DNA from: Nitrosospira sp.
GTDB taxonomy: Bacteria > Pseudomonadota > Gammaproteobacteria > Burkholderiales > Nitrosomonadaceae
DNA: 64,000 bases
Reading direction: 5' to 3'
Assembly (NCBI GenBank): GCA_013821425.1
Contig: JACDGV010000010.1
Coordinates: 1-64,000 of the forward strand
The notes below the pieces were generated by a model. The model saw only the letters and a program-made list of their open reading frames with translations. It searched no databases and was not told the origin of the DNA. This document shows positions 8,642 to 23,140 of the stretch, in pieces. Each line of letters starts with the position of its first letter. Positions within the stretch are counted from its first letter, which is position 1. The translations under genes and the position numbers were made by a program.

Positions 8642-9056
8642 AACCCCGTTGATTTGCCGGGGAAGACCGTATTCCTCTTACTTGATCCTCCCTGTCGTCT
8701 TATACGATCCCGCCCAACTTCCACCCTGACTCTCACCCGACATTCAAGCCAGGGACCTCATGGTAAAACTGCGGCGGTCAGCTGCGAGACAGCGAAACCC
8801 GACTCAAACCAGGATCGCCTAACAGGCGATGGCGGGGGTTATTTCTTCGAATTTGACCAAATGGAATGAAGACATGGGTGATTGAATATGAGTTCCAAGG
8901 TAGTCGCATAAAATACACTATAGGTAGGTATTCACGCAACGGCGCACAAGGCGAGAGTATTCCAGTTTAGCTTAGGGCTTCCTTGGAAATGGCCAGCAGT
9001 CGCTGGCCCAAGGCCGTTCGGTTGCTCGGAGGTTGGAAGGCAGCCCCGATGGCGGG

Positions 9057-9262
9057 GACATTACAGACCTCAATTCGCTGGTGATCTGCCAGATTGGGTT
9101 ATTCTAACCCACGCCGTGGACATCAATAACGTGGGACAGGTCATTGCCATCGCTTCAGGCATCCCGGAGCCTGAGATCTATACAATGCTTCTTGCCGGGC
9201 TTGGCCTAGTCGGATTTGTGGCTCGGCGAAAGAAGATGGGTGCCCGCGCCTTTAGCGCTTGA
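9057..9262 (+). pseudogene. Frameshifted 3' remnant of a HAF-repeat/PEP-CTERM secreted protein
   Basis: Two adjacent frames read GDITDLNSLV / DLPDWVILTHAVDINNVGQVIAIASGIPEPEIYTMLLAGLGLVGFVARRKKMGARAFSA*; PEP motif, hydrophobic helix and Arg/Lys-rich tail; one base appears missing near 9083. Confidence 0.75.
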
Positions 9263-9593
9263 GGCGGCGACCCTAGTTGTAGAAGTTATAAATTTTTGAT
9301 CGCAGTCCAGAATACATGAAAGGATTTACGATGCTTTGACCTGACCCCCCTGCAGGTAAAGCGAATTTTGCCGAATTGGAAACCTCGATAAAAGTTTCCC
9401 TGCGATACAAAACGGGTCTCCCGTTTTGTGTTACTGCCCTGCCTGCGTCTGCGTGGCGGCAACACCCGCTTGCCCCGGCTTGATTTTGTTGATTGAATGT
9501 CGGGGTGTGTGATCCAGGCCTTCCCGGGCGATTGAAAGACAGGATGGGCTCTTGCCCCCCGGTAAGTAATCGCCCAGATGCAGCGCCAGCCTC

Positions 9594-10037
9594 TCACTGC
9601 TTCTTCCACTCCATTTTTTCGCCCGGAACGATGCGAAAAAATGGATGGGACTCAGGCACGATAATGTCTTGAAACTGCCGATGAAGACCTGGAGCCCGTC
9701 TTCGCAGTTTTTCCTTTAAGTGGGCCCATTCGAAGAGTAGTTGCCCATCTGTTTCCTCAATCGGGCTCACTGTCCCAGACTCGACCGTACCCGGCACTAG
9801 AATCTTCGTTGTATCGAAGTGGTAGCCCCGGCACTCTGCTTCCTCCGCAAGGCTTGCCAGAAATACTCCCATTGCCTGCAGCGGCTGAGGATGGTTCCGG
9901 AAACGCAAAAGTTGGGGATGACGGGTGTAGCCGATGGTGAAACCGGACAATACCTTTTGAGCCAACAAGGCCTCCCTCCATGCGGCGGTAAGGCCCCTGG
10001 CGTCAAGATAACGTGGGTGAAGCGTCCAGAGGCGCAT
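9594..10037 (-). CDS. Pyrimidine dimer DNA glycosylase/endonuclease V-like protein (Pyr_excise family)
   Basis: MRLWTLHPRYLDARGLTAAWREALLAQKVL...GYTRHPQLLRF pattern. Confidence 0.78.
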   Translation of the reverse strand: MRLWTLHPRYLDARGLTAAWREALLAQKVLSGFTIGYTRHPQLLRFRNHPQPLQAMGVFLASLAEEAECRGYHFDTTKILVPGTVESGTVSPIEETDGQLLFEWAHLKEKLRRRAPGLHRQFQDIIVPESHPFFRIVPGEKMEWKKQ

Positions 10038-10102
10038 AAGCTATACTTTTCCCGTAGTATTGGTCTAGCATGTAATCTTACCGTTCCGATGAATAACGTG
10101 TC

Positions 10103-11404
10103 ATGAAGAACCGCAAAAATACAAATTGTGGGAACAATGGGTTGAGGCGACGCAGGTTTATCTTTTCGACTCTTTCGGCTGGATTTACCCTGGCAGTTTC
10201 TCCGCTTTACGCCCAGGTGGCCATGAACATGCCAGAAGCGCATGTAAAGGAGGACGAAGAAAATTCGCTTGCATCCCCCCGGTCCCCGGTTTCCGGCTCA
10301 GTCACGCTGTTTCTCTGCGGCGATGTCATGACGGGGAGGGGAATCGACCAGGTCCTGCCCCACGCTGGCGACCCCATCCTCTATGAGGATTATATGAAGA
10401 GCGCGACCGGTTATGTGGAGCTTGCCGAAAGGGCCAATGGCCCGATTCCCAGGCCAGTGAATTTTTCCTATATCTGGGGCGATGCCCTGCCCGAGCTGGA
10501 TCGCAGAAAGCCCGACGTGCGCATTATCAACCTGGAGACGGCTGTCACACGCAGCGACGCTGTGCAAGACAAGGCAGTCAACTATCGCATGCATCCCGAT
10601 AATATCCCGTGTATCGCCGTGGCTGATATCGATTGCTGTGCCCTGGCGAATAATCATGTTCTGGATTGGGGATACGCCGGCCTTGCCGATACGCTGGAAA
10701 CTCTGAAAAAGGCAAATATAAGATCTGCCGGAGCAGGCCAGGATATCCGCGAGGCGCGAGAACCGGCCGTGATGCCCATTCCCGGAAAGGGGCGCGTTTT
10801 GGTATGTTCTTTTGGTTCCGAGACCAGCGGCATTCCCTCGAGCTGGGCTGCGATGCCGAGCAGAGCGGGAGTGGATTTCCTGCCCGACTTTTCTTCCGGC
10901 ACGATCCGTGGTATCAGAGAGCGCATTGCGGTGGTTAAAAGGATGAGCGACATTGTCGTTGCCTCGATTCACTGGGGCGGCAATTGGGGCTATGAGGTGC
11001 CGCGTGAGCAGCGGGAGTTTGCCTATGGGCTGATCGATGAAGCAGGGGTTGATATCGTCCACGGCCATTCGTCCCACCATGCGAAAGGGATTGAGGTTTA
11101 TCAAGGAAAGCTTGTTCTTTACGGCTGCGGCGACTTTCTCAACGACTACGAAGGTATCTCGGGACATGGAGCGTACCGGGGGGACCTGGCTCTGATGTAT
11201 TTCGTAAGCACCGATCTGTTAAGCGGCAAGCTGGTCAGCCTGGAGATGAAACCGATGCAGCTCAAGCGCTTCAGGCTTAACCGCGCTTCCAGGCTCGATG
11301 CGATCTGGCTGAGGGATGTCCTGAATCGTGAAGGAAAAAAATTTGGAAGCTGGGTAGAACTGAGTGCGGAGAATACTTTAACGTTGCGATGGGCGAATGG
11401 CTGA
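10103..11404 (+). CDS. CapA family protein (poly-gamma-glutamate capsule biosynthesis-like metallophosphatase)
   Basis: LFLCGDVMTGRGIDQVL, LETAVT, ANNHVLDWG, GHSSHHAKGIEVYQGKLVLYGCGDFLNDYEG motifs; N-terminal RRRFIFSTLSAGFTLAVSPLYA signal. Confidence 0.88.
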   Translation: MKNRKNTNCGNNGLRRRRFIFSTLSAGFTLAVSPLYAQVAMNMPEAHVKEDEENSLASPRSPVSGSVTLFLCGDVMTGRGIDQVLPHAGDPILYEDYMKSATGYVELAERANGPIPRPVNFSYIWGDALPELDRRKPDVRIINLETAVTRSDAVQDKAVNYRMHPDNIPCIAVADIDCCALANNHVLDWGYAGLADTLETLKKANIRSAGAGQDIREAREPAVMPIPGKGRVLVCSFGSETSGIPSSWAAMPSRAGVDFLPDFSSGTIRGIRERIAVVKRMSDIVVASIHWGGNWGYEVPREQREFAYGLIDEAGVDIVHGHSSHHAKGIEVYQGKLVLYGCGDFLNDYEGISGHGAYRGDLALMYFVSTDLLSGKLVSLEMKPMQLKRFRLNRASRLDAIWLRDVLNREGKKFGSWVELSAENTLTLRWANG

Positions 11405-15945: not shown

Positions 15946-16074
15946 TGAATGCGTATGGAAATATCGCGTGGGGCGGTATCCCTGATCGATATCCTTTCTC
16001 GCTCAAGGCGTCTCCGCGGTATTTTCTTGTTAACCACATGTTGGACGGCGGGTCCATCAATACAAGAAGATACC

Positions 16075-18147
16075 ATGAGCAGTTGTCGTAAATCCTTTGC
16101 GCCATTTTTTTTCCTTGCTACATCTTCGTGGGGTTCGTGGGCCGTTGGGTCGGACGGCTCGGCAGCGAAGCCGCTCGAAGAAGTTGTGGTCACCGCTACG
16201 CGTTTTAGCGAACGGGTCGAGAAACTGCCCATCGGGGTATCGGTTATCAACGCGGAACAGATCAGAAACAGCGCCGCTTCAAGCCTGCCTGAGCTATTGC
16301 AACAACTGGCAGGCGTACATACCCGTAACGTCGATGGCAGTCCCGATCCGCAGATCGACATGCGCGGATTCGGCATTACCGGCAATCAGAACACTCTGGT
16401 TCTGCTGGATGGTCAACGGATAAACGAAAACGAACTGGTCGGTATCCGCTGGTCGACAATTCCACTGGGTTCAATCGAACGTATCGAGGTGCTGAGAAGC
16501 AGTGGCGCCGTGACCTATGGCGGGGGCGCCACGGGCGGGGTAATCAATATTGTTACGCGCGCTGCAACTCCTGGCGGCGTCTCCGGCAGCGGTGCTGTTT
16601 CGCTGGGCAGCTACAGTGGTACCGAGTTTAACGGCGCGCTGAACGTCGCGGGTAAGAACCTGGGGCTGGCGCTCACCGGTAACGCCCTCGAAACGGAAAA
16701 CTACCGCGTCAACAACGCCTTGCGCCAGATGAACCTTCAAGGAGATCTCCGCTACCAGTTTGCCACCGGCAGGGCGTTATTAAAGTTTGGCCTGGATGAT
16801 CAGAAGCTGGAATTACCTGCGACTCGCACCGAGGCGCAACTGCAAACCGACCGAAGAGGGACCTCGACACCGCGGGATTTCAGCACCCGGGATGGCGCGT
16901 ATATCACGCTCAGGGGCGAGCATTCCGTTGGATGGGGCGATTTTGCCGCGGACCTGTCCTTTCGGAACAACCATCGCACAGCGTTGTTCGACGACTACAG
17001 CATCGATTTCTTCAACTCGAAGTCGTTCCTGAATTCGAGGTCCGCCGCGTGGTTGTTCAATCCCAGGGTAAAACTGCCGTTTCGGGCTTTCGAGATGAAT
17101 CATGAACTGATATTGGGCGCCAACCTGGAATGGTGGGATTACCGTTCGAAGCGCTTTAGCGGGTCAGAAATTGAGCCGGGTGCAGCATCAGCCGACATAT
17201 TGCAAGCTGATGTGGCGGCGACGCAGCAAAACCGGGCCATCTATCTTCAACATGCCTCGACTCTACACACCGGCACTGTCGTGACTGTAGGGGGGCGGCT
17301 GCAAGGGGTGGAAAACCGGGTCAATGATCATTTCAATTCGGCGACCCACGCCCGCGACCGGCAGAGCCGGATGGTGTATGCTTATGATGCAGGTATCCGC
17401 CAGCCAGTGGCTTCTGCCTTCTCCTTTTACGGCAAATTTGGCCGCAGTTTCCGGATAGCTACCGTAGACGAAAACTACAATCAGTTTGGAGGGCCCGCGT
17501 TTGATTCCCAGGTCGAGATACTTGAACCTCAGACTGCTCATATCGGGGAACTCGGGGTGGATTACCAGCGAGGGCCAGTTCTTGGGCGAGCCTCGCTCTA
17601 CCGAATCAATCTCGACAACGAGATCAGCTTCATCAACATAGACCCGTTCCTGTTCTTTGCCAACATCAATCTTCCTCCTACCCGGCGGCAGGGTTTCGAA
17701 CTGGAAGGTTCCTGGGCTGTCACCAGCGCATTCGATATTTCTGGTAACTATACGTTTGCCGATGCGCGTTTTCGTGAGGGGAGCTTTGGCGGAATGGATG
17801 TTTCAGGGAACATGATCCCGCTGGTTCCTCGCCACAGGGCTGCCGCGGGGGGCACGTTCCGGTTCGCGCGGCAAACCAGGGTTGCGGCAATGATGAACTA
17901 TGTAGGCGACCAAGTCATGGACAATGACCAGGCTAACACCGCTACACGCCGCATGCCGGATTATGTTACGGTGGATATCAAAATTACCCATCAGATGAGC
18001 AGGTTGTTGTTGAGCATGGCAGTAAATAATCTGTTTGATGAAAAGTATTTTTCTTATGCAGTCCGCAACGGAGCCGGCACGAGCTTCAATGCACTCCCGG
18101 CTCGAGAGCGTAATGTCTGGTTCACAGTAAAATACCAGTTCGACTGA
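16075..18147 (+). CDS. btuB: TonB-dependent receptor, BtuB-like (cobalamin)
   Basis: EEVVVTATRFSERVEKLPIGVSVINAEQI TonB box/plug, QIDMRGFG, GAVTYGGGATGGVINIVTR, C-terminal NVWFTVKYQFD; follows the cobalamin riboswitch; start chosen at MSSCRKSFAPFF. Confidence 0.9.
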   Translation: MSSCRKSFAPFFFLATSSWGSWAVGSDGSAAKPLEEVVVTATRFSERVEKLPIGVSVINAEQIRNSAASSLPELLQQLAGVHTRNVDGSPDPQIDMRGFGITGNQNTLVLLDGQRINENELVGIRWSTIPLGSIERIEVLRSSGAVTYGGGATGGVINIVTRAATPGGVSGSGAVSLGSYSGTEFNGALNVAGKNLGLALTGNALETENYRVNNALRQMNLQGDLRYQFATGRALLKFGLDDQKLELPATRTEAQLQTDRRGTSTPRDFSTRDGAYITLRGEHSVGWGDFAADLSFRNNHRTALFDDYSIDFFNSKSFLNSRSAAWLFNPRVKLPFRAFEMNHELILGANLEWWDYRSKRFSGSEIEPGAASADILQADVAATQQNRAIYLQHASTLHTGTVVTVGGRLQGVENRVNDHFNSATHARDRQSRMVYAYDAGIRQPVASAFSFYGKFGRSFRIATVDENYNQFGGPAFDSQVEILEPQTAHIGELGVDYQRGPVLGRASLYRINLDNEISFINIDPFLFFANINLPPTRRQGFELEGSWAVTSAFDISGNYTFADARFREGSFGGMDVSGNMIPLVPRHRAAAGGTFRFARQTRVAAMMNYVGDQVMDNDQANTATRRMPDYVTVDIKITHQMSRLLLSMAVNNLFDEKYFSYAVRNGAGTSFNALPARERNVWFTVKYQFD

Positions 18148-18307: not shown

Positions 18308-20107
18308 ATGCAAAACAGGCAGCCAACCACCCGCCGTAAATTATGCCTGCGCCTGATGAAATATACCGCATCCCACTGGGGGGCATTTATGCTTGGGCTG
18401 GGCGGGATGCTGGTGACGGCGGCAACGATGCCAGGACTCGCGGCATTGGTGCAATTGATCCTGGATGGCGTCGTTGCGGGGAAGAGCCTGGAATTGATGC
18501 AGGTAGCCCTGCTGAGCATACTCGCGTTATTTGCCATGCGTGGCGTCGCCGGTCACATCGGTACCTATGGGATCAATTGGGTAGGCAGTCAACTGGCGCA
18601 GGATTTGCGCCTGGAAATATCACACAAATTATTGCTGCTCTCCGTTGGCTGTGAGCTCTGGCATCCCAACGGCACAGTTGTTTCCAGGATCACATCAGGC
18701 ACTACACAAATTGCCCATGCTTTCTCCAGCGTGGTTACGGTGGCGATAAAGGACACGTTTACGATTACCGGCCTGCTGATGTGGATGCTTTATCTGGACT
18801 GGACACTTGCCTTGCTTGCAGTATTGATGGCACTGTCGATTCTGTTGATTAGGCATTTAATCAGCAAGCGGCTGCAAGGATTAACGCTGCAGGTCGAGCA
18901 AGCCCTGGATGGCTTCTCTCAGCTGGTGAAGCAATCCGTCGAAAATCACATGCTGGTCAAGCTTCACGATGGTGAGCAGTATGAAAACCAGCGCATGAGG
19001 AAGCAAGCGGAAGAGGTGCACCGCGGGGTGGCAAGACGGACGTCAATCGAGGCTAACAGCATTCTGCTCATGCAGATGGCGATCGCTATTGCGCTGTCGG
19101 TTATCGTCTACGCTGCGGCTCAGCACGCATCGGCGGATAAGATCACTGCGGGCGGCTTTGCTTCTCTCGCCGCCGCCGCGCTGCTGTTGATTCCGGCGCT
19201 AAGACGAGTCACGCGTATAAATGAATCTTTGCAACCTGGGCTGACCGCCGCTGAGAGCATATTTTCATTCCTGGACCAGGAAACTGAACCGGATGAGGGA
19301 ACGATAGCAATCGAACGCGCACGGGGAGAATTGAGATTCGAGGAGATCACTTTCTGCCACGGCCGGGAGATGAACTCCGAAACCGGCGTCACGGCGGGTT
19401 CTGGTTCAAGTGCCGAAGCGACTTCGGCTTCGCAGGGCATCACGCTGACGGTCCAACCCGGAGAGATGGTGGCGTTGACCGGCGGTTCCCCGGCAGCAAT
19501 AGCGGCTCTGGTTAGCCTGGTGCCTCGCTTTCTTAATCCCGCATCGGGAAAAGTCCTGCTTGATGGCCATGATGTAAAGTGTCTCAAGTTGGCCGATTTG
19601 CGCGCCAATATCGCGCTTGTGTCCGCCGATGCGGTATTCAGTGACACTATCGCCGCGAACATAGCGTACGGCGCCAGGGGCTACGCAACAGAAGCACGGA
19701 TCACAGCAGTTGCGCAAGCGGCCCATGCTGCGGAATTCATCCGCAAAATGCCGCAGGGATTGCAAACGATGGTGGGACAGCAGGGTCAAAAGCTTTCCAG
19801 CGACCAGTACCTGCGCATAGCCATAGCACGGGCATTGCTGAAAAATCCCTCCATCCTGATCCTGGATGAGACATTGGAAACGACGGGCCCGGACGCCGTG
19901 CGGCACGTACAGGCCGCGTTGGAAAACCTGACAAAGGACCGAACCACGCTCGTCATCAAGCCTCGTCCATACACTCTGGAGAAAGCCGATTGGATAGTCG
20001 TGCTGGACAAAAACGGAATTATCGAAAGCGGCAGCCACCGGGAGTTACTCGCAAGAAACGCGTCCTACGCTAAATTTGCCGACACTTTGCTTGAACAGCA
20101 CGTGTGA
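18308..20107 (+). CDS. MsbA-like ABC transmembrane/ATPase fusion protein with degenerate nucleotide-binding motifs
   Basis: MsbA-like TMD and NBD layout (NTIAANIAYG-like ADAVFSDTIAANIAYGARG, ILILDET, VVLDKNGIIESGSHRELL) but Walker A, Q-loop, signature and H-loop are not consensus. Confidence 0.88.
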   Translation: MQNRQPTTRRKLCLRLMKYTASHWGAFMLGLGGMLVTAATMPGLAALVQLILDGVVAGKSLELMQVALLSILALFAMRGVAGHIGTYGINWVGSQLAQDLRLEISHKLLLLSVGCELWHPNGTVVSRITSGTTQIAHAFSSVVTVAIKDTFTITGLLMWMLYLDWTLALLAVLMALSILLIRHLISKRLQGLTLQVEQALDGFSQLVKQSVENHMLVKLHDGEQYENQRMRKQAEEVHRGVARRTSIEANSILLMQMAIAIALSVIVYAAAQHASADKITAGGFASLAAAALLLIPALRRVTRINESLQPGLTAAESIFSFLDQETEPDEGTIAIERARGELRFEEITFCHGREMNSETGVTAGSGSSAEATSASQGITLTVQPGEMVALTGGSPAAIAALVSLVPRFLNPASGKVLLDGHDVKCLKLADLRANIALVSADAVFSDTIAANIAYGARGYATEARITAVAQAAHAAEFIRKMPQGLQTMVGQQGQKLSSDQYLRIAIARALLKNPSILILDETLETTGPDAVRHVQAALENLTKDRTTLVIKPRPYTLEKADWIVVLDKNGIIESGSHRELLARNASYAKFADTLLEQHV

Positions 20108-20136: not shown

Positions 20137-22185
20137 TTATTGGGGCGTGTGTTGAGGGGTTTGTCCGGCCACGTCACTGTAGGGCTCGCCAGGTTCCCGA
20201 AAGGAGAGTATTGTTTCCCGGCTTGAGTATTCCGGCACCCATTTTTTCAATTGCTGCCTGACCTCCTCATCGCTCAGTACAGGGTGTTCGTTTAGCCATT
20301 TCAGCAAATCCGCCAGCCATCCTTTGTCTATCTGGCGAGCCTGGGCGATGCGCAGTTTAGGATGAGGTGTGAGCAACGTGCTTTCGTCGTCGGCCAATAG
20401 TTCTTCGTAGAGTTTTTCCCCAGGGCGCAATCCATTGTACACAATCCCTATTTCGTCCTCGCTCAAACCAGAGAGGCGGATCAGGTCTCGGGCAAGGTCA
20501 GCTATTTTTACCGGCTCGCCCATATCCAGCACGAAGATTTCTCCGCCGCCTTTCCCTCCCATCACTCCGGCTTGCAAAACCAGTTGGGCGGCTTCAGGTA
20601 TGGACATGAAATAGCGGGTTACGTCGGCATGAGTCACGGTTATCGGTCCGCCGTTTTTTATCTGCTCGCGGAACTTGGGTATCACGCTGCCCGCGCTATC
20701 CAGCACGTTGCCGAAACGTACCATGACAAAACCCGGGCCTTGGGACCGCACGCTTGAACCTTTATTTGCGCAGCCAGAGACGGGTTGCTGTAACGCCTGG
20801 CATACCATCTCCGCGAGGCGCTTGCTGGCTCCCATGACATTGGTGGGATTGACTGCCTTATCCGTCGAAATCAATACGAATTTTTCCACCGCATGCTCAA
20901 TTGCGGTCTGCGCAAGGATATAGGTTCCGAGCACGTTGTTCAGAATCGCCTGCCACGCATTTTCCAGTTCCATCAGCGGCACATGCTTATAAGCGGCAGC
21001 ATGAAACACGACTGCCGGCTGGTATCGTGAGAACACTTGATCCAAACGCGCCTGATTCTTGACATCTCCTATGGTAAATGCCATCAGGATGTCCGGAAAA
21101 CTGGACTGGAATTCCTGCTCAAGGCTATAGAGCGAAAATTCGTTCAATTCGAACAGCACCAGTCGGCCGGGATTGAACTTGGCAATTTGCCGGCATAATT
21201 CCGAGCCGATCGAGCCTCCGGCTCCTGTGACTAATATCGTTTTCCCCGCCAGCAAGTCATGGAGACCCTCGTTATCCAGTACTACGGGATCGCGTCCTAA
21301 TAAGTCTTCTGGCTCGACAGTGCGTATTTGCGACACGGTGATTTTTCCGCTTATTAGGTCGTCATACGAAGGGACAGTTAGCGCCTTTATCCCGGCGCCA
21401 GCGCACATTTCCACGGCTCGACGGCGGTTGCGGTGAGAGCGGTCCGGACGCCGGCGGTCGAGTTCAGCACGGGAGGACCGCCGGCGATCGGACGGGGAGG
21501 ATGTTATGGCGATAATGGCTTGGGAGATGCCCAGTTTTCTGGCTATGGCAGGCAATTCATCGATCCTTCCCAGGACTTTGGCACCGTGCAGAACCAGGCC
21601 ATGTTTTGCAGGGTCATCGTCCAGTAAGCCGGCCACTTGCCACTGCCGGCTGCGGCCAAGTTCCTTCACCAGGCTGATTCCGGTGTCCCCCGCCCCCAGC
21701 ACCAGCACGGAGCTGCTTTCCGGTTTCTTTTTTCCATAGAGTCGATGCTCCTTCCAAAACCGGTACGCAAGCCGGCTGCCACCCATGATAAACAGAAGCA
21801 GGATGGGGGCCAGCAGCAATACGGTTCGCGGCACGCCAGCGAGCGTTTGCAGCATGAATAACACTAACGGCATGGCGGCGGCAGAGGCCAGCACGGCGAA
21901 AAGAATGCGCTGTAGATCTGGCAAACTTGCATAATGCCAGAGCCCCCGATATAGCCCGAACCAGAGAAACACGACCGCATGCACCGGCACCACCCAAGGT
22001 AGAATCTCCTTCAATGAGGTCAGGTACAGGGTGGGTATTTCGAAATTAAAGCGAAACGCAAAAGCCAGCCACCAGGCGAAAATCGCCGCGGCAAGATCGT
22101 GAACGAAGGCAATGACAGTGCGTATATTGATTCGTGGCAGCGGCATGTTATGAGTTGCAGGGATTGCGCGCCAAATAGCGATCAT
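20137..22185 (-). CDS. Nucleoside-diphosphate sugar epimerase/4,6-dehydratase (WbpM/CapD/FlaA1-like)
   Basis: TM helices at N-terminus; KTILVTGAGGSIGSELCRQI; VFHAAAYKHVPLME; LISTDKAVNPTNVMGASKRLAE. Confidence 0.93.
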   Translation of the reverse strand: MIAIWRAIPATHNMPLPRINIRTVIAFVHDLAAAIFAWWLAFAFRFNFEIPTLYLTSLKEILPWVVPVHAVVFLWFGLYRGLWHYASLPDLQRILFAVLASAAAMPLVLFMLQTLAGVPRTVLLLAPILLLFIMGGSRLAYRFWKEHRLYGKKKPESSSVLVLGAGDTGISLVKELGRSRQWQVAGLLDDDPAKHGLVLHGAKVLGRIDELPAIARKLGISQAIIAITSSPSDRRRSSRAELDRRRPDRSHRNRRRAVEMCAGAGIKALTVPSYDDLISGKITVSQIRTVEPEDLLGRDPVVLDNEGLHDLLAGKTILVTGAGGSIGSELCRQIAKFNPGRLVLFELNEFSLYSLEQEFQSSFPDILMAFTIGDVKNQARLDQVFSRYQPAVVFHAAAYKHVPLMELENAWQAILNNVLGTYILAQTAIEHAVEKFVLISTDKAVNPTNVMGASKRLAEMVCQALQQPVSGCANKGSSVRSQGPGFVMVRFGNVLDSAGSVIPKFREQIKNGGPITVTHADVTRYFMSIPEAAQLVLQAGVMGGKGGGEIFVLDMGEPVKIADLARDLIRLSGLSEDEIGIVYNGLRPGEKLYEELLADDESTLLTPHPKLRIAQARQIDKGWLADLLKWLNEHPVLSDEEVRQQLKKWVPEYSSRETILSFREPGEPYSDVAGQTPQHTPQ
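21442..21493. repeat. Imperfect palindromic element inside the epimerase gene
   Basis: GTCCGgaCGCCGGCGGTC (21442-21459) and GACCGCCGGCGatCGGAC (21476-21493): 16 of 18 paired, 16-nt loop. Confidence 0.85.
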
Positions 22186-23140
22186 AGGCGAGCATCAAGA
22201 CAAGGTAGATTCCACACCATGCAATACCAACCACGAGCTGAACAGCGGAATCCTCGCGCATTGCCCACAACGCGCTTGCGCCCGAGGCCAGCATGAGAAT
22301 ATAGGCAAGCAGCGCGGTATTGCGATGACCCAGGCCATTTTGCACCATGCGCTGGTAATAATGTTCCCGATGTGCTTGCCAGATTTTTTCACGCCGCAGG
22401 CTTCGTTTCGCGAGAGTGACGGAAGCATCGGCGATAAATGGAGAAAATACCAGCAGTGGCAGCCAAGCCGGCCAATAGCCGTTTATCCAGCCAGTCATAC
22501 CCAGTGCGGCGGCTAGAAATCCCAGCGGAATCGAGCCTGTATCACCCAGAAAAATACGGGCGGGATGGAAATTGAACAGCAAAAAAGCGGCCGCGGACGA
22601 GGCAATACAGAAATTGATCATTGCAAATAGCTCATTTGCATTCAACCAGGCCGCCATGCCATAACAGCTGAAGCCGATCAGCGTCATGCCCCCCGCAAGG
22701 CCATCCGACCCATCCATAAAGTTATAGAGATTTATCATCCATGCAACCGCGATAGCCGTAATGGCTACAATCATCCAGCTGTTTGTACCGGGAAGCAATG
22801 CTGCCGAGAACCAGAGCGCAACGGCGCCATGCATCAGCAGGCGCACCGGGGCCGGAAGCCCGAAAATGTCGTCGGCGAAGGATACCGATGCCAAAAGGGT
22901 AACCGCTATCCATATCGGCGCGGCCAGTGCGGTAGGCAGGATTGTCCATGAGACGAGTATGCCCAGCACCAGGGCCAGTCCCCCGGTACGGGGAATAGGC
23001 TTGGTGTGAAGTGAACGGAGATTGGGGTAATCCAGCACTTCGAAAATTTTGCTTTTGATCAGCCATTTGGTCAAGGCGAGCGTCACTATGAATGCTAATA
23101 ATGGCGGCGCAACGCTTATAAGAAAGGGGCCAGGGATCAT
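22148..23140 (-). CDS. Undecaprenyl-phosphate glycosyl-1-phosphate transferase family (WecA/MraY-like)
   Basis: RSLHTKPIPRTGGLALVLG, NLYNFMDGSDGLAGG, FLGDTGSIPLGFL, HREHYYQRMVQNGLGH motifs. Confidence 0.92.
   Translation of the reverse strand: MIPGPFLISVAPPLLAFIVTLALTKWLIKSKIFEVLDYPNLRSLHTKPIPRTGGLALVLGILVSWTILPTALAAPIWIAVTLLASVSFADDIFGLPAPVRLLMHGAVALWFSAALLPGTNSWMIVAITAIAVAWMINLYNFMDGSDGLAGGMTLIGFSCYGMAAWLNANELFAMINFCIASSAAAFLLFNFHPARIFLGDTGSIPLGFLAAALGMTGWINGYWPAWLPLLVFSPFIADASVTLAKRSLRREKIWQAHREHYYQRMVQNGLGHRNTALLAYILMLASGASALWAMREDSAVQLVVGIAWCGIYLVLMLAYDRYLARNPCNS

Follow-up and report, generated by a model that had tools for sequence, protein, structure and literature searches.

The open reading frame at positions 18308-20107 of the forward strand is very likely the true msbA ortholog of the Nitrosomonadaceae, a family that no longer makes lipid A. 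(Positions without a contig prefix refer to the window, the whole 64,000-nucleotide stretch of Nitrosospira DNA analyzed here.) We term this gene pseudo-msbA; the ATPase motifs of its 599 amino acid product are degenerate. The LPS genes are gone and the ATP residues have been lost with the pump still intact, which argues that selection preserves a pump-like protein for another job, probably one that is not driven by ATP. Our best explanation, to which we give somewhat less than an even chance of being right as a whole, is that this msbA ortholog of a lipid-A-less family is now an ATP-independent, lipid-binding pseudo-transporter, probably a scramblase or chaperone of anionic lipids, in which the NBDs act as structural gates.

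The protein is encoded in one unbroken frame, and the initial annotation of an uninterrupted MsbA-like ORF was confirmed by Pfam and NCBIfam searches. The TMD (aa 34-293; 18407-19186, forward strand) matches PF00664 ABC_membrane (E=1.7e-31, 110.4 bits), and the degenerate NBD (aa 338-599; 19319-20104, forward strand) includes a match to PF00005 ABC_tran at aa 376-522 (E=3.4e-18, 67.0 bits). Both matches are above the gathering score, placing the protein within the ABC exporter fold. TIGR02203 (MsbA) is the top NCBIfam model, with a score of 473.8 bits that lies below the curated cut-off of 602. The pseudo-msbA locus corresponds by synteny to the canonical msbA locus of the outgroups, and the MsbA orthologs of the family form a single clade with support of 100/99. 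Among the features expected of an MsbA equivalog, pseudo-MsbA thus has the locus, the tree position and, except for D/E41, the lipid A phosphate ring; it lacks the 602-bit score and intact ATPase motifs. An AlphaFold model from a three-sequence input had a pLDDT of 40 and a pTM of 0.25, too low to be informative.

Pseudo-msbA is flanked upstream by a TonB-dependent receptor gene (15949-18147, forward strand; Pfam and synteny), a neighbor in many Nitrosospira, and downstream by a conserved, convergent gene for a WbpM/CapD-type UDP-sugar dehydratase (20137-22185, reverse strand; PF02719 and synteny). The latter is followed by a WecA-type undecaprenyl-phosphate sugar transferase (22148-23140, reverse strand; PF00953 and synteny). 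The same-strand order of receptor and pseudo-msbA, kept in many Nitrosospira and in genus g4, could suggest that the protein is an inner-membrane partner of the receptor in substrate uptake. We regard this as highly improbable: the receptor gene ends 115-320 bp ahead of pseudo-msbA, the two genes are not adjacent in genus g3, and LPS-making outgroups also have the receptor near msbA, so the gene order is inherited.

All of the ATP-site elements reported in the initial annotation, including degenerate Walker A, Q-loop, signature and H-loop motifs and a preserved Walker B, were recovered on the forward strand, at positions exact to within a few bases. Walker A reads LTGGSPAAIAALV (19475-19513) and has no P-loop Lys, the equivalent of E. 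coli K382 being Ile398. The Q-loop is VSADAVF (19619-19639), with Ala in place of Q424, the signature is LSSDQYLR (19793-19816), and the H-loop is VIKPRP (19952-19969), with Pro in place of H537. Two further losses were identified, the A-loop Tyr351, which is His (19358-19360), and the D-loop, which reads ETTG where SALD is expected (19877-19888). The Asp and Glu of Walker B, ILILDET (19853-19873; D505 and the catalytic E506), are the sole catalytic residues left in the window's protein. Assembly or sequencing error was ruled out as the source of the degenerate motifs, as independent genomes agree.

We compared 33 full-length orthologs from the family with 14 aligned outgroup MsbAs from other families of the order. 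The annotation would have been contradicted by intact motifs in sister genomes, but a canonical P-loop was found in none of the 33 family sequences, as against 14/14 outgroup MsbAs. MsbA is degenerate also in a further family member (G027) and in the partial sequence from G034; no msbA ortholog was located in two of the 37 family genomes, G028 and G030. Within the 33 sequences the A-loop Tyr is kept in one, Q424 in 5, H537 in 9 and K382 in 15. Residues K382, G379, S/T383, Q424 and H537 each require 4-6 changes on the tree; the loss of the ATP site is progressive and has proceeded in parallel across lineages. Conservation of a degenerate motif set among homologs therefore holds only as far as the degeneracy itself, which is family-wide; no new motif set has been conserved, and the same losses have occurred repeatedly. 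Among columns without variation in outgroup MsbAs, family retention is 44% at the ATP site (19 columns) versus 74% elsewhere in the NBD (Mann-Whitney p = 0.0005); for the TMD it is 66%. Walker B Glu506 is kept in 32/33 pseudo-MsbAs even though nearly all other ATP contacts have drifted.

The near invariance of Glu506 is one reason to consider a reduced but real ATPase. On this reading, ATP binding would persist in some lineages (G018, G002 and G004), and the transporter would be weak or gated by ATP. The least degraded members still have K382 and Q424 along with the signature and the catalytic Glu; G018, the least degraded of all, reads GFSGCGKAA, VSQ, LTGGQ and DE. However, the window's protein and the group typified by G013 lack the Lys, Gln and His together, and 32 of the 33 orthologs have lost the A-loop Tyr, and we consider this explanation quite improbable.

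The lipid A pathway was surveyed in 61 genomes, 37 from the family and 24 from outgroups. LpxC, LpxB and WaaA were found in 0/37 family genomes and in 24/24 outgroups, and no LpxK was detected in family genomes outside genus g3. The fabZ locus includes lpxD and lpxA-lpxB in outgroup G050, and these genes are missing from that locus in G000 (the genome of the window), G024 and G033. These losses agree with the published lpx count, in which lpxK is the sole lpx gene of N. europaea and lpxA that of N. multiformis (PMC3087551). Since g3 alone keeps LpxK, as published for N. europaea, this genus is presumably Nitrosomonas. A lone canonical LpxA (320-333 bits) is encoded away from the fabZ locus in G003, G006-G011 and G013 (for example, G006:C1:2515906-2516664); the LpxA-bearing Nitrosospira have none of the other Lpx enzymes tested, and G000 has no LpxA. 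G037, a 98% complete genome of family f2, has LpxC, LpxB, WaaA and a canonical MsbA and shows no match to LpxK.

It had been predicted that a genuine MsbA would be encoded elsewhere in the genome. This was not the case: searches with TIGR02203 across the 61 genomes gave clear MsbA matches in outgroup families, mostly at 680-809 bits, and no canonical MsbA in the genome of the window or its 36 relatives within the family, an absence explained by the loss of the lipid A pathway. In the window's own genome pseudo-MsbA ranks first (473 bits) and an Atm1-type exporter second (420 bits). Five less degraded members of the family narrowly exceed the cut-off (607-624 bits); the matching gene in all five is again the degenerate one. 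The Atm1-type paralog (C24) was ruled out as a replacement flippase, as its best solved relatives are Atm1, ABCB7 and ABCB6 and it occurs in outgroups too.

Another ABC half-exporter of this genome, C4 (L077:6743-8476, reverse strand), has canonical motifs and shares 53% identity over its full length with the exporter beside spt on a Pseudomonas plasmid sphingolipid island. Its four closest plasmid homologs are set apart from the rest (47-53% identity versus 31%), and the records of at least three of these four also carry a ceramide synthase homolog. Judging from these sequence relationships, C4 is probably a new, sphingolipid flippase that has taken over flipping, which would leave the former role of MsbA doubly vacant. 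The presence of canonical half-exporters in the genome also bears on the proposal, made in the initial annotation, that pseudo-MsbA is a heterodimer partner, supplying the degenerate half-site to a canonical half-exporter, for example one of the C4 type. Heterodimeric ABC exporters in which one site is degenerate are known, and pseudo-MsbA nearly always keeps the Walker B Glu and, in some lineages, part of the signature. We found no positive evidence for such pairing. No paired canonical exporter gene adjoins pseudo-msbA, whose neighbors are the TonB receptor and WbpM genes. The ATP-site elements lost differ by lineage, so that the pattern of degeneracy is not conserved, and the signature too is lost in many of them. 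Because the window's protein has a damaged Walker A as well as a damaged signature, neither composite site would be left unimpaired. In addition, no pseudo-MsbA is present in the stretch read of the sphingolipid island that carries the plasmid homolog of C4. A heterodimer is thus improbable.

A homolog of the YghO/CC_1154-family acyltransferase, a ceramide synthase needed for dihydroceramide, is encoded in 37/37 family genomes and in 0/24 outgroups. In G000 it belongs to a sphingolipid-type cluster (C7, 133.8-140.3 kb; L117:12818-18998 and L124:656-1810) that also includes a nucleotidyltransferase-like protein, a DAGK-type kinase, LptG, LptF and an NTP transferase; the order of the ceramide synthase, NTP transferase, lptF, lptG and DAGK-type kinase genes matches that of the Pseudomonas sphingolipid island. 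In G033, presumed to be a Nitrosomonas, spt and an acyl-ACP synthetase gene lie about 6 kb from pseudo-msbA (L087:1-3371 and 9022-10734). Phosphosphingolipid genes have been reported for N. eutropha, without the Caulobacter flippase candidate CC_1166 (PMC11324152). The family has apparently swapped lipid A for sphingolipids, to judge from its gene content. Of the 61 genomes, 60 have two LptF/LptG genes. LptD is retained throughout, including in every LPS-less genome of the family (for example, G000:C24:247975-249072). The retention of LptF/LptG and LptD suggests that Lpt probably carries sphingolipid in the Nitrosomonadaceae. The open frame of LptD is mostly about 900-976 aa in genera g1, g2 and g4 versus mostly 740-880 aa in outgroups.

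Selection on pseudo-msbA was measured with bootstrapped Nei-Gojobori counts from six pairs of closely related species taken together. The dN/dS ratio of the TMD is 0.214 (0.179-0.251) and that of the NBD 0.218 (0.181-0.262); both lie far under 1, even between sister species that are already degenerate. The frame is intact in every complete pseudo-MsbA of the family, with synonymous sites near saturation, whereas neutral drift would be expected to yield about 5 stops at 0.1 substitutions per site. With neither a broken frame nor a dN/dS near 1, pseudo-MsbA is not a pseudogene; the constraint is weaker than that on the Atm1-type paralog and is present in both domains. These values, together with the family-wide degeneracy, support the earlier description of a pseudo-transporter under continued selection.

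The same data bear on a slow loss of the gene, in which pseudo-MsbA has no dedicated new function, has been eroding since lipid A synthesis ended, and retains its frame through weak residual selection, for example because misfolding of a membrane protein is harmful or because some minor residual phospholipid activity is still useful. The dN/dS of pseudo-MsbA is 3-4 times that of the Atm1-type paralog (0.05 for the TMD and 0.08 for the NBD), and pseudo-msbA is the fastest evolving gene at its own locus (50-58% identity versus about 75-82% for its neighbors), which fits relaxed constraint and argues against our best explanation. The parallel losses at the ATP site, with no conserved replacement motif, and the two genomes in which the gene was not located point in the same direction. 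On the other hand, the intact frames, in which neutral change of as little as 0.1 substitutions per site should have left about 5 stops, the low dN/dS of both domains among degenerate sisters and the retention of NBD core residues count against slow loss, which we consider possible but not probable.

Most of the lipid A phosphate ring of MsbA, as defined in PMC8660845, is also preserved. On the forward strand of the window it includes R78 (18539-18541; kept in 30/33 orthologs), K148-D149 (18749-18754; residue 148 is basic and residue 149 acidic, each in 32/33), Q256 (19073-19075; 27/33) and R299, the equivalent of E. coli K299 (19202-19204; basic in 30/33). Given the column retention and the conserved ring, pseudo-MsbA looks like a folded, non-catalytic NBD beneath a lipid-binding cavity.

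From these patterns we infer that pseudo-MsbA would not hydrolyze ATP and that it would bind and scramble lipid, and we suggest the following course for the ATP-independent pseudo-transporter. Once sphingolipid had taken the place of lipid A, flipping of lipid A at the cost of ATP would no longer have been needed, and each lineage would then have lost the ATP site stepwise, in parallel with the others. The protein may persist because the folded dimer retains a role that requires no hydrolysis: its inner-membrane cavity, with the basic ring, could bind an anionic lipid, either a phospholipid or a phosphosphingolipid, and the protein would supply the Lpt extraction machinery as a scramblase or lipid chaperone that needs no energy input, its NBDs serving solely as structural dimer gates. 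That pseudo-MsbA is a selected, nucleotide-independent scramblase or chaperone specifically for sphingolipid export via Lpt, following a family-wide swap of lipid A, seems to us rather unlikely. The ring losses (D/E41 is gone in 27/33 orthologs, R310 in most) and the failure to locate an ortholog in G028 and G030 count against the best explanation. In E. coli, MsbA without K382 does not flop PE, growth is not rescued by MsbA without K382 or without its NBD, and drug transport is the only activity on record for truncated MsbA in the same study (PMC8660845); this is the weak point of a lipid-moving role without ATP.

The decayed transporter is tied to a switch of the whole envelope in a family of ammonia oxidizers, which appear to lack lipid A and to have ceramide synthase instead, with LptD and lptF/lptG kept. 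The family offers about 35 natural MsbA variants with graded loss of the ATP site, most of them with the lipid ring, as a panel for studying an ATP-free MsbA fold and for asking whether Lpt can carry sphingolipids. If the explanation is true, an ATP-free MsbA scramblase or chaperone would be a new working mode for the ABC exporter fold. Publications on single species already describe Lpx enzymes as lost (N. europaea, N. multiformis) and sphingolipid genes as present (N. eutropha), but we found no prior report in the open-access literature of a family-wide, selected, ATPase-degenerate MsbA. The Kdo2-lipid A loss described for N. europaea and N. multiformis concerns the same family and the same pathway; the lpx survey of that report counts genes and does not treat MsbA or a sphingolipid replacement (PMC3087551).

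Pseudo-MsbA resembles the E. coli lipid A flippase MsbA (b0914) in its length, six-helix TMD and NBD, Walker B DE, lipid-phosphate ring (R78/R148/K299 in E. coli) and, in related families, chromosomal locus. It differs in its degenerate A-loop, Walker A, Q-loop, signature, D-loop and H-loop, and in a host without lipid A enzymes. It shares the ABC exporter fold and non-canonical ATP-site residues with TmrAB, TM287/288 and TAP, heterodimers with one degenerate site. These, however, have one complete site and both of the Walker A lysines, whereas in pseudo-MsbA a single chain carries the damage to Walker A and to the signature, and no partner gene is adjacent. Like MsbA-MD and MsbA-deltaK382, it would be an MsbA membrane domain without ATP hydrolysis; those constructs are artificial and do not rescue lipid transport in E. 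coli (PMC8660845), while pseudo-MsbA is natural, under selection and found in an LPS-less cell. The sphingolipid-island exporter (Pseudomonas pBYT5-2, L128:3755-5485, with C4 as its Nitrosospira ortholog) is a half-exporter of the same superfamily, present in the same cells, but it has canonical motifs, shares only 32% NBD identity with pseudo-MsbA, and is the likely replacement flippase.
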